DNA of 64,000 nt, taken from the NCBI RefSeq assembly GCF_900089075.1, contig NZ_LT593747.1:62001-126000 (forward strand). The letters are read 5' to 3'. The notes below the pieces were generated by a model, which was not told the DNA's origin, did no database searches, and worked only from the letters and a program-made list of their open reading frames with translations. Position 1 is the stretch's first letter; every line of letters begins with the position of its first letter. The stretch is from Vaginella massiliensis (GTDB lineage: Bacteria; Bacteroidota; Bacteroidia; Flavobacteriales; Weeksellaceae). The translations under genes were made by a program, and so were the position numbers. This document shows positions 13,652 through 54,482 of this stretch, in pieces.

Positions 13652-13963
13652 TTTTTTATTAAAATTACATAAAAATTTTCACACCAAGAATCAGGTAAAT
13701 GAATGGAAGAGATTTTTCCTTACGGCTCATCTATTTTAGCACCGTGGCTTTCGCTCGGTTGCTGTCAATTCAATGACTCTTGATGTTGGTATAAATTTAA
13801 ACAAAATTTTTACCTATCCAATAGCTAACCAAATTTTATTGGCTTTTTTAGTATTTTTACAAAAGACAATAGTTGGCTCAGTGATAAAGTTTTTTTAGAC
13901 ATGATTCCTTGCCGATTCGTTTTCTGTTCTGTAAAATGTTTCCAATAAACGATTAAAAAAATA
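13652..13963. other. Intergenic stretch between divergent genes
   Basis: 312 bases between the FAD oxidoreductase (minus) and the Mrr-type nuclease (plus). There is a weak imperfect hairpin around 13738-13765. No ORF with a plausible start and no confident promoter were found. Confidence 0.4.
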
Positions 13964-50135: not shown

Positions 50136-51134
50136 TTACAGGAGTTGTATCCCGTGCTGTTGCAATTCTGTTTTTAGATTTTCGTCCCAAACACTCGACT
50201 GCACTTCGCCCACATGCTTTTTCTGTAAAAAGAACATGCAAAGTCTAGATTGTCCAATGCCACCGCCAATACTGTAAGGTAAGGATTCTGCCAAAATTTG
50301 TTGATGATAATGAAGCGATGATTTGTCTTCTTCGGCACGAATTTTCAGTTGCTTTTCCAAGGCAATTTTATCTACTCGAATTCCCATCGAAGACAATTCG
50401 ATACTGTGTCCCACAACTGGACTCCACACGATGAAATCACCGTTCAGTCCGTTGCCTATTTCGGTTGCGGTACTCCAATCGTCATAGTCGGCAGCTCTTC
50501 CGTCATGAGCTTTTCCACAAGAAAGTTCACCTCCAATGCCAATGATGAATACGGCGCCAAATTCTCTCGCAATCGCGTGTTCTCGTTCTTTTGCGGTAAG
50601 TGTAGGATATTTTTGATACAAGTCTTCTGCGGTAATAAAATGGATGCGCTCGGGCAATAATAGCGATGCTATAATGTTTTCTTGCAACAGCTGCGATTCT
50701 GTTTCTTTAAGGGCAGAAAATATTTTTTCGACCGTTGTTTTCAAAAAAGCTATCGTTCGGTCTTTTTTGGTGATGTGCATTTCCCAATCCCATTGGTCCA
50801 CATAGATCGAGTGCAAGGGTGAATAATCTTCGTCTGGTCTTAGCGCATGCATATCGGTAAGGATTCCTTCGTGTACCCGAATTTCGTATTCTTTCAGTTT
50901 TATTCTTTTCCATTTGGCAAGCGAGTGTACAATTACAGCTTGTGCATCTTGCAGTGCTTTCACTTTGAACTTTAATGGTCTTTCTAATCCATTCAGGTCG
51001 TCATTAATTCCCGTCCCATCCATTACCATAAGAGGCGATGAAATTTTGTGCAGTTGCAAAGCTTTTCTCAGTTTTTGTTGAAAAATGTTTTTGATTTCTT
51101 CAATTTTTCGTTCTGTTTGTAGTTTCGTTTCCAT
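50136..51134 (-). CDS. asnA: Aspartate-ammonia ligase (asparagine synthetase A)
   Basis: 332 aa. AsnA hallmarks: MVMDGTGINDDLNG near the start, AVIVHSLAKWKR, YDSPLHSIYVDQWDWE-like SPLHSIYVDQWDWEMHI, IGGELSCGKAHDGRAADYDDW and GGGIGQSRLCMFFL (class II aaRS-like ATP site). It makes Asn from Asp, ammonia and ATP. Its stop abuts the sbcD stop. Expression is probably controlled by the Asn-rich leader ORF and terminator at 51160-51360. Confidence 0.97.
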   Translation of the reverse strand: METKLQTERKIEEIKNIFQQKLRKALQLHKISSPLMVMDGTGINDDLNGLERPLKFKVKALQDAQAVIVHSLAKWKRIKLKEYEIRVHEGILTDMHALRPDEDYSPLHSIYVDQWDWEMHITKKDRTIAFLKTTVEKIFSALKETESQLLQENIIASLLLPERIHFITAEDLYQKYPTLTAKEREHAIAREFGAVFIIGIGGELSCGKAHDGRAADYDDWSTATEIGNGLNGDFIVWSPVVGHSIELSSMGIRVDKIALEKQLKIRAEEDKSSLHYHQQILAESLPYSIGGGIGQSRLCMFFLQKKHVGEVQSSVWDENLKTELQQHGIQLL

Positions 51135-51159
51135 ATGTTTAGCGATTTTTTTTAATAAA

Positions 51160-51188
51160 AAAAGCTTCTCAAAAGTTGAGAAGCTTGG
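51160..51188 (-). terminator. Attenuator-type terminator before asnA
   Basis: Perfect 11-bp hairpin: 51176-51186 pairs with 51162-51172, triloop, followed on the minus strand by T7. It lies about 26 bp before the asnA ATG and downstream of the Asn-rich leader ORF, so it would cut transcription before asnA. The 5' arm (51178-51183 plus 51185-51186) can instead pair with the leader at 51235-51242, with one bulged G. Confidence 0.85.
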
Positions 51189-51218
51189 GAAATTTGTTGT
51201 ACAATATATTTTATAATG

Positions 51219-51305
51219 CTATACTTTGGTCCATAACTTCTCTGTTCGAATCTGGTTAGAATTCAAATTATTATTAGAAAAATTATTTACCGCAGTATAT
51301 TTCAT
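51219..51305 (-). CDS. asnA leader peptide, Asn-rich, 28 aa
   Basis: ATG 51305 to TAG 51219: MKYTAVNNFSNNNLNSNQ then IRTEKLWTKV. Seven of 28 codons are Asn (positions 7, 8, 11, 12, 13, 15, 17), clustered before the possible antiterminator arm (codons 22-24). A consensus promoter lies 26 bp upstream and an intrinsic terminator plus asnA lie downstream. Inferred role: ribosome stalling at Asn codons when charged tRNA-Asn is low allows read-through into asnA. Not shown experimentally here. Confidence 0.8.
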   Translation of the reverse strand: MKYTAVNNFSNNNLNSNQIRTEKLWTKV

Positions 51306-51330
51306 GTTTTCCTGATGGTTTTCGTTCTCA

Positions 51331-51360
51331 CAAATATAAAAAAATATTTTACACATCAAA
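51331..51360 (-). promoter_or_regulatory. Promoter of the asnA leader
   Basis: Minus strand: -33 TTTG (51357-51360), 18-bp spacer, -7 TATATTTG (51331-51338). Full Bacteroidota consensus. Confidence 0.8.
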
Positions 51361-51446: not shown

Positions 51447-54400
51447 ATGATTCCTGTAAAACTCACGTTAGAAGGCTTGTATTCTTATCAAGAACGTCAA
51501 ACTATTGATTTTTCTGATCTAATTGATGCCGGATTGTTTGGGATTTTTGGAACCGTAGGTTCAGGGAAATCATCAATTTTAGAAGCGATCAGTTTTGCTT
51601 TGTACGGTGAAATCGAACGACTAAATTCCAAAGAGCGAAGGGCTTACAATATGATGAATTTGAAGTCGAACCGCTCTTATATCGAATTTGATTTCTATAA
51701 TTTCGAAGACCGACTTTTTCGTGCTACAAAAGAATTCAAACGGAATTCTAAACGGTATGATGATGTCGGTACGGTAACTTCTAATCTATACGAGTTCAAG
51801 GATAATAAATGGTTTCCGCTAGAGAGCGTAAATATCGAACCGATTATTGGGCTAAGTTACACAAACTTCAAACGTACAATCATCATTCCGCAAGGGCAAT
51901 TCAAAGAGTTTTTAGAATTGAGCGAGACCAATCGAACAACAATGTTGAAAGAAATTTTCAACCTCGATCGTTACGATTTGCAAGAACGAGCTGCAACTTT
52001 AGTGAAAGAAAATTCGGCCCAAATCAACCAAATGGAAGGGAAGTTGCAGGGTTTTGAAGCGATTAACGAAGAAGTAATTGAAAATCAAAAAAATCAATTG
52101 GCGCAAATACTCGAAGAATGGCAAAAAGCAAAGTCAAAGGTTGAGGAAGCTCAAGAAAAATTTCAACATTTAAAATTGATAAAGGCTGATTTTCAATTGT
52201 TAGCGTCCAAAGAAGCCGAATTTGAAAAGCTGACCGAAAAGAAACGATTTGTAGACGAACAAGAGCAAATATTAAAAGAATTCGAACAGCTACAATCGCT
52301 TTTTTCTCATGATTTGAGGTTGCAGAAAAAATTGACTCAAGCTATTTCTGCCCAGCAAAAACTTATCGAAAAAGAAACCAAAACTGCAGAAATTTTAATT
52401 CAAAAACTGACTGCCCTTACAGCAAAAAAAGAACAATTGCAACAAGAATATGCGACCTTGGAAGATCGCAAAATCGAAGTTCGGGATTTAGAATTTTTAG
52501 TGAAAATCGTAGAAAATCAGGCAACATCGAAAGATTTGGAAGTTCGGGTAAAAAACGGTTTGAAAGAGGTAGAACAGGTAGAAAATGCTAAAAATAAAAT
52601 CACTCAAAAAATCGTAGCGTTAGAAACTGAAATTGAGGCATTTAATAGCAGCTTGATTGATGATGAATTGTTGATGAAAATAGAAAAATGGTTTCTGGAA
52701 TTGAAAACTCTACAAAGCGAACAATCGAAAATAAACGATTCAATTCGCCAGAATTCCGAGCAAATTTCTGCAATCAGCGCAACGTTGAGATCCGAAAATA
52801 TTAATTTATCGGATTTTGATTTTCAGTCGAAACAAAAATTTGATTTGCTCAACGATCAAGAAAAAAAATTATCGCGCGAAAGGCAACAATTGTCCATACA
52901 AGAAAAATTGTCGACCTATGCTCAGAATCTGCACAACGGCGAGGCTTGTCCGCTTTGCGGTTCTACAGAACATCCCAACATTGTGCATATAGAAGATGTT
53001 ACGAATGCGCTGACGACAATTGAAGAAAAATTGAATGCGGTCAAATCAGCTCGTGAACACGAACATCAAATCAAAACAAAAGTAGAGCAATTTCGTTCGC
53101 AATTGCAAATTTTTGAAGAGCAGTTGCAAAAAGATAAACAACAACTTTCGATCATTGAAAACAAGGCAAAAGAACACCAAAAAGCCTTCGAATGGACGAT
53201 TGTTGAGCCAAATGAAAGTCTTTTTTCGAAACTCAAACAAGAGAATTTGAGTAAGAAAAACCACTTGAAAAAGCTTCAGAATGAATTGAAAAATGAGCGA
53301 GAAGTCTTGCAAAAAGCTATAGAAAATGTAGATAAATACAAACATTATGTAGAAAAATTTCAATCGCAATTGCAGGTTTTAATATCGCAAATTGAACTCA
53401 ATCGAACGTATCTCAAACGCTTAGATTTCGAAGAGTTTGTACAAAAAACTCAAGAAGAACTAATACAAATACATCAAAATAGCATAGAAAAGATACAGAA
53501 ATTGGAGCAAGAATACGAAGCTTGTAACCAAGAATTAATCGAGATTACGCCAAAAATTTCTTCTCAAACAACGCTCTTGACAACAGCTAAAAATCGTTTA
53601 GACGAATTGAAAACGGAGTCTGATGAATTGCAGCAAAGATTTTTAGCCAACATGCAAGCGCATCAAAAATCGAGTATGGAAGAAATCGAAAAGGTTTTAA
53701 CTAAAACCTTGAATGTAAGTGAAATGAAAAAAGAAATACAACAGTTTACCATTCAGTTTTCTGCTTTACAATTACAGCTGACCGAGTTGAAATCGAAGTT
53801 GAAAGCAGTTGTGTATGATGAAGAATCCTATCTTTTGGCCGAAAAACAACTTACCGAAAACGAAGAATCGTTGAACATTTTTACAGAGAAAAAAGCAACC
53901 CTCTCGTCAGAAATTTCTCGACTTTCAACCGAATTCGAGAAGAAAAAAAATCTAATACTCGAATTCGAAAAACTGCAAAAAAGACAAGAAAACTTGAGGC
54001 TGATGAGCAACTTATTCAAAGGAGCAGGTTTTGTGAGGTATGTCTCGTTGATTTTTCTACGGCAATTGTGCGACAACGCCAATGTTCGTTTTCATCGAAT
54101 GACCCGCAATCAATTGAGCTTGCAGGTAAACGACAAAGGAGATTTCGAAATCATCGATTATTTGAACGAAGGGCGTGCTAGAAGCGTAAAAACCTTGTCG
54201 GGCGGACAGGCTTTTCAGGCGTCGTTGAGTTTGGCTTTGGCGCTTGCAGAAAGTGTGCAATCGCAGGTAAAATCATCCAAAAACTTTTTCTTTATAGACG
54301 AAGGTTTTGGGACGCAAGATGCCGATGCGGTGAATGTAGTTTTCGAGACTTTGATGAGTTTGCAAAAAGACCAAAGAATTGTGGGTATTATCTCGCACGT

Positions 54401-54482
54401 TGAAGAGTTGAAAGAACGCATTCCTAAAGCACTCACGATAACGAAAGACGAACAAAAAGGTAGTTTTATCAATATAGTATAA
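51447..54482 (+). CDS. sbcC: SMC-family ATPase SbcC (Rad50-like)
   Basis: 1011 aa. N-terminal Walker A FGTVGSGKSSILEAISFALYG, long coiled coils broken by the zinc hook GEACPLCGSTEHP (about residue 505), C-terminal signature VKTLSGGQAFQASLSLALALAES and Walker B FFFIDEGFGTQD. With SbcD it forms the DNA-end and hairpin nuclease. Intact. A 40-codon ORF follows, then a terminator. Confidence 0.96.
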   Translation: MIPVKLTLEGLYSYQERQTIDFSDLIDAGLFGIFGTVGSGKSSILEAISFALYGEIERLNSKERRAYNMMNLKSNRSYIEFDFYNFEDRLFRATKEFKRNSKRYDDVGTVTSNLYEFKDNKWFPLESVNIEPIIGLSYTNFKRTIIIPQGQFKEFLELSETNRTTMLKEIFNLDRYDLQERAATLVKENSAQINQMEGKLQGFEAINEEVIENQKNQLAQILEEWQKAKSKVEEAQEKFQHLKLIKADFQLLASKEAEFEKLTEKKRFVDEQEQILKEFEQLQSLFSHDLRLQKKLTQAISAQQKLIEKETKTAEILIQKLTALTAKKEQLQQEYATLEDRKIEVRDLEFLVKIVENQATSKDLEVRVKNGLKEVEQVENAKNKITQKIVALETEIEAFNSSLIDDELLMKIEKWFLELKTLQSEQSKINDSIRQNSEQISAISATLRSENINLSDFDFQSKQKFDLLNDQEKKLSRERQQLSIQEKLSTYAQNLHNGEACPLCGSTEHPNIVHIEDVTNALTTIEEKLNAVKSAREHEHQIKTKVEQFRSQLQIFEEQLQKDKQQLSIIENKAKEHQKAFEWTIVEPNESLFSKLKQENLSKKNHLKKLQNELKNEREVLQKAIENVDKYKHYVEKFQSQLQVLISQIELNRTYLKRLDFEEFVQKTQEELIQIHQNSIEKIQKLEQEYEACNQELIEITPKISSQTTLLTTAKNRLDELKTESDELQQRFLANMQAHQKSSMEEIEKVLTKTLNVSEMKKEIQQFTIQFSALQLQLTELKSKLKAVVYDEESYLLAEKQLTENEESLNIFTEKKATLSSEISRLSTEFEKKKNLILEFEKLQKRQENLRLMSNLFKGAGFVRYVSLIFLRQLCDNANVRFHRMTRNQLSLQVNDKGDFEIIDYLNEGRARSVKTLSGGQAFQASLSLALALAESVQSQVKSSKNFFFIDEGFGTQDADAVNVVFETLMSLQKDQRIVGIISHVEELKERIPKALTITKDEQKGSFINIV

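Follow-up and report, generated by a model that had tools for sequence, protein, structure and literature searches.

An asparagine-codon leader upstream of asnA in Vaginella massiliensis and its relatives is a probable ribosome-mediated attenuator

Introduction

Why should a gene for asparagine synthesis be preceded by a short reading frame rich in asparagine codons and, behind it, an intrinsic terminator? The question arises in a 64,000-nt stretch of DNA from Vaginella massiliensis (GCF_900089075.1, NZ_LT593747.1, positions 62,001-126,000), which we call the window and whose positions serve as coordinates throughout. An earlier note on this DNA had proposed that low charged tRNA-Asn stalls a ribosome on the leader, frees an antiterminator, and turns asnA on, a proposal for which comparative sequence evidence now gives good support. 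In a 2010 survey, leader peptides were confined to Proteobacteria and Actinobacteria, to which that survey added Firmicutes (PMC2965389), and PMC4833913 cites comparative work on attenuation by Lopatovskaya and colleagues. We find that the asnA leader is, to judge by its sequence, real and intact, very probably an asparagine-specific ribosome-mediated attenuator and part of a conserved Bacteroidota set.

Results

The asnA Leader and Its Parts

The leader occupies a 312-nt intergenic region between a divergent sbcC-like gene (51447-54482, plus strand) and asnA (50136-51134, minus strand). Direct reading of the minus strand gives, in order, a Bacteroidota promoter, a 28-codon Asn-rich ORF, an antiterminator arm, a terminator, and asnA itself, the controlled gene, which encodes a 332-aa aspartate--ammonia ligase identified with the NCBIfam equivalog model TIGR00669 (387 bits; cut-off, 292.8). 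The promoter is of the Bacteroidota sigma-A type (51331-51360, minus strand) and has the TTTG-N18-TATATTTG form claimed for it in the earlier note, with TTTG at 51360-51357, the N18 spacer, and TATATTTG at 51338-51331; the −7 consensus in flavobacteria is given as TAnnTTTG in PMC9723704.

The leader ORF (51219-51305, minus strand; MKYTAVNNFSNNNLNSNQIRTEKLWTKV) has Asn-rich counterparts upstream of asnA in other Bacteroidota. Its seven Asn codons stand at codons 7, 8, 11, 12, 13, 15, and 17 (51255-51287, minus strand), where Asn codons align in 26 leaders, and five of them fall within codons 7-13, exactly as had been noticed earlier. A longer in-frame ORF is also present, with an ATG upstream of the −7 element, so that 51305 is the first usable leader ATG. 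The intrinsic terminator (51155-51186, minus strand), a covarying hairpin in relatives, consists of a perfect 11-bp stem (51186-51162) and a U-run and lies about 27 nt before the asnA ATG at 51134, again in agreement with the earlier description, every factual statement of which stands. Since the sbcC-like neighbor is divergent, this terminator cannot be that of a minus-strand gene lying upstream. Three further minus-strand segments define the pairings discussed below: region 1 (51276-51286; the Asn7-Ser10 codons), which pairs with region 2 in the minimum free energy (MFE) fold without a ribosome; region 2 (51233-51243), the antiterminator arm recognized by duplex and covariation analysis, which lies within the leader ORF and has the core GAGAAGTT at 51242-51235; and region 3 (51176-51186), the terminator 5' arm, which the pairing analyses place in both antiterminator and terminator.

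Chance Expectation and Uniqueness Within the Genome

An 11-bp terminator appeared in 0 of 1,500 dinucleotide shuffles of the intergenic region, and an Asn-run ORF of this kind occurs a single time across the whole 64-kb window. We pooled 400 kb of the same genome with the window to obtain a 464-kb background holding 382 genes, 39 of which have a terminator within 450 nt upstream; among these 382 genes, asnA alone has an Asn-rich ORF ahead of a terminator. The same genome carries a normal AsnRS gene (asnS) and an asnB-like gene, and no Asn leader was found before either.

The leader is AT-rich and strongly structured, folding far better than its own shuffles (z −4.6, MFE fold), as might be expected of an RNA-only or protein-bound switch (a riboswitch, a T-box, or the target of an RNA-binding regulator) in which the Asn codons are incidental to A+T-rich sequence. 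We consider such a switch very unlikely: the leader matches no Rfam family at gathering thresholds, the T-box included; dinucleotide shuffling of the 312-nt region yields an ORF with 5 or more Asn among 7 codons in just 15 of 20,000 trials; Asn codons are kept in dozens of divergent leaders; and leaders of the same layout bear other codons that fit other pathways. Elsewhere in the window, a SAM-I/IV riboswitch lies at 13702-13791 (minus strand; 48.6 bits).

Distribution of the Leader Among asnA Relatives

The asnA gene is patchy in Bacteroidota, with 7 convincing matches among 59 relatives and 18 among 323 genomes within the family; a single-protein scan of genome contigs yielded just four relatives, all without a leader. 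We speak below of a comparison set of 98 distinct asnA loci assembled from several searches. The arrangement that the earlier note had predicted for relatives, namely an Asn run, an antiterminator, and a terminator upstream of asnA, is borne out there: 40 of the 98 loci, divergent in sequence, carry an Asn-rich leader ORF with a terminator behind it (for example, MILRSNNFSANNNLNNSIRSGRLLH, MRHFRNNLQNNNSNNNLIRDWKAIAPLEN, and MYQSLNNNNANNNLNRAFDSKGLYIVYDLS), and two more added by eye (L098 and L107) bring the count to 42. All 42 leader-bearing asnA fall within one subclade of 64 in a maximum-likelihood tree built from the 98 proteins, where the window asnA is sister to that of a genome from another family (G1280). 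Presence and absence of the leader require five state changes on this tree, and we favor one gain and several losses, a reading that the tree does not settle.

The leader is missing from 56 of the 98 loci, among them those of an entire genus in the same family. These leaderless loci mostly belong to other asnA subclades or have promoter-like sequence near the gene, and the leaderless genes inspected inside the subclade mostly have promoter-like sequence near the start codon. Terminators upstream of leaderless asnA were considered as attenuators and rejected in most cases because promoter-like sequence lies downstream of them. Two loci (L034 and L036) have tandem Asn-rich leaders, each with its terminator, before a single asnA. 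In the second leader of L034 (MKQRQTNNNNKSPPGPDFKSLI), the stop codon abuts the second terminator, and a ribosome at that stop would block the hairpin, opposite to the usual logic.

Loss or degeneration of the leader in several asnA lineages raises the question whether the window terminator is simply a constitutive damper, with asnA controlled at its promoter or uncontrolled and the leader in decay. The one same-genus relative fetched (L003) would fit such decay, having the Asn ORF and terminator and no detectable antiterminator. The window elements, however, are all intact, and the window antiterminator has the strongest z-score of the 40 leaders, so that we regard decay at this locus as extremely improbable and an intact attenuator as the preferred reading.

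Alternative Pairings and Covariation

Region 2, which the earlier note had flagged at 51235-51242 as a possible antiterminator arm for the terminator 5' arm, pairs with that arm at −14.4 kcal/mol (z −5.1), and 0 of 100 shuffles do as well. Nearly all leaders share this pairing, which begins at about codon 20-21 and has a mean z of −3.1, the exceptions being L003 and L097. A third helix, region 1:2, which joins the first Asn codons to the antiterminator arm, has a mean z of −2.6 over 39 loci and a z of −2.9 in the window.

We aligned 26 leader sequences and asked how the two competing helices vary. The antiterminator helix is paired in 92.3% of cells, with 9 double-change cells, and the terminator helix in 87.3%, with 12; the alignment is automatic, and slips of one column in a few rows lower these counts. 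None of 500 shuffles matches either helix in percentage paired, double-change cells, or covariation score. Kinship among the sequences persists in these shuffles, but all three measures drop when either helix is displaced by one to three columns. Both mutually exclusive helices thus show compensatory changes, and the parts of the leader, their conservation, and the covariation of its two exclusive helices can be read from the comparison of sequences itself.

The antiterminator arm GGAAGGCT is read in the frame GRLL in some species and WKA in others, so that what is conserved is the RNA and not the peptide. This bears on a further explanation, suggested by a translated-looking ORF with its own promoter and its own terminator: that the ORF encodes a functional small protein, or that the transcript is a small RNA, merely ending in a terminator before asnA. 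Conservation limited to the Asn codons and the antiterminator RNA, within a peptide that otherwise varies, makes this a reading to which we give almost no credence, and complementarity of the ORF RNA to the terminator would serve no role under it.

Modeled RNA States and a Proposed Mechanism

Folded at equilibrium, the complete window leader invariably adopts the terminator, even with a masked ribosome, and shows no switch; the mechanism must therefore be kinetic. Because attenuation is decided during RNA synthesis, we folded the nascent transcript up to the terminator loop with the ribosome footprint masked, taking the footprint size and a temperature of 30 °C as assumptions. In this model, the window 2:3 pairing stands at 0.00 in the absence of a ribosome, at 0.73 when the A site is on Asn codons 7-15, and at 0.01 for a ribosome at the stop codon; the corresponding means over 40 loci are 0.50, 0.80, and 0.27, and some relatives have high modeled 2:3 pairing without a ribosome or at the stop codon. 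The geometry is that of an attenuator, in that a ribosome on the Asn codons frees the antiterminator and one at the stop covers it, and the modeling supports three RNA states (no ribosome, stalled, and at the stop). A mask at codon 2 likewise opens the antiterminator (mean 0.77), and Asn specificity consequently rests on codon content and not on the fold: as modeled, the fold indicates the positions at which stalling would be effective and says nothing about which codons cause the stall.

We infer ribosome stalling, termination in vivo, and a response to Asn as follows. Transcription would start just past 51331. With ample Asn-tRNA, the ribosome would pass the Asn codons to the stop and cover region 2 (codons 21-25), whereupon the 3:4 terminator would form and transcription would stop before asnA. 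With Asn-tRNA scarce, the ribosome would stall at Asn codons 7-15 and melt region 1; region 2, now free, would engage the 5' arm of the terminator (2:3) while the 3' arm is still to be transcribed, and the polymerase would enter asnA. In the absence of translation, 1:2 would form, with termination by default. We hold it very likely that a ribosome-mediated transcription attenuator couples asnA expression to charged tRNA-Asn in this way.

The Same Layout Before Other Pathways

We built a covariance model (R2) on the asnA leader and ran it over 248 genomes of the phylum; its E-values are rough, and one ilvD and the remaining downstream genes were checked with family models. Among its top full-length matches outside asnA are leaders whose codons fit the downstream gene: ilvD, in nine genomes of family f38, is preceded by Val/Ile-rich leaders, cysH by one with Met/Cys codons, ilvA by an Ile leader, the O-acetylhomoserine sulfhydrylase gene metY by a Met leader, and hisG by a His leader. 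Other matches have no clear fit between codons and gene. The ilvD leader (MLSTVISLVIIRVIGI...) is conserved, with an antiterminator-like element and a terminator, at L142-L145, L147, L149, L153, L154, and L156. Leaders such as MNLKVNKMFCAISVSTEAGLSIA, followed by a terminator and with no obvious regulatory codon, occur at L150, L159, and L167.

In the genome of the window itself, outside the window, ilvE-ilvD is preceded by two Ile-rich leaders in tandem, MYNSIIISSIIITGVISQSGKE and MNLYNNTIIISIIIINSPP, and behind each lies a terminator-like hairpin (L169, G000:C9:771639-771929); these putative leaders are an internal positive control for leader-peptide attenuation in Vaginella massiliensis. 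One could picture the Bacteroidota attenuators as a single chassis of common descent (a leader ORF, a GGAAGGCT-type arm in its 3' end, and a complementary terminator) in which the regulatory codons alone are swapped, as Asn for asnA, Ile/Val for ilvD, His for hisG, and Met/Cys for sulfur genes, in tandem in places. We put this forward tentatively and on balance lean against it; the terminator sequence shared among leaders of different pathways may reflect convergence.

Discussion

An Asn-codon leader and a terminator in the same layout in dozens of relatives indicate that asparagine shortage is most likely sensed by ribosome stalling. The mechanism class is classical; the amino acid, the gene, and the breadth appear to be new. 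The earlier note was aware of no such leader described for asnA, which holds within the literature we searched: we found no earlier report of an Asn leader for asnA in the searchable open-access literature. In Flavobacterium psychrophilum, leader-peptide attenuation is described as likely before amino-acid biosynthesis operons, with structured 5' elements before pheA, hisG, and others (PMC9723704); those leaders belong to the same phylum and the same kind of control, and the main text of that paper makes no mention of asnA or asparagine.

With the asnA leader, the list of amino acids and genes subject to leader-peptide attenuation would grow by asparagine and asnA, and this form of control would be placed firmly in Bacteroidota. 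The leader further implies, for a phylum whose translation initiation is unusual, a coupling of transcription and translation tight enough to permit attenuation, and it puts dozens of natural leader variants on hand for testing attenuation.

Other bacteria control asparagine genes by different means. In Firmicutes, T-boxes on asn genes let uncharged tRNA-Asn switch these genes on; the logic is the same, whereas the T-box RNA binds tRNA directly and the asnA leader is translatable and has no Rfam match. In Escherichia coli, asnA is controlled by AsnC, a DNA-binding regulator; the target gene is the same, and the control proposed here would reside in an RNA leader. The closest mechanistic precedent lies in the enterobacterial trp, his, ilv, leu, thr, and phe attenuators, each with a leader ORF enriched in codons for the end product, 1:2, 2:3, and 3:4 pairings, and an intrinsic terminator. 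The asnA leader resembles these in its codon-rich ORF, its alternative pairings, and its terminator before the structural gene, and differs from them in its amino acid and gene (asparagine and asnA), in an antiterminator arm inside the ORF, in its Bacteroidota promoter, and in serving a single gene, not an operon.
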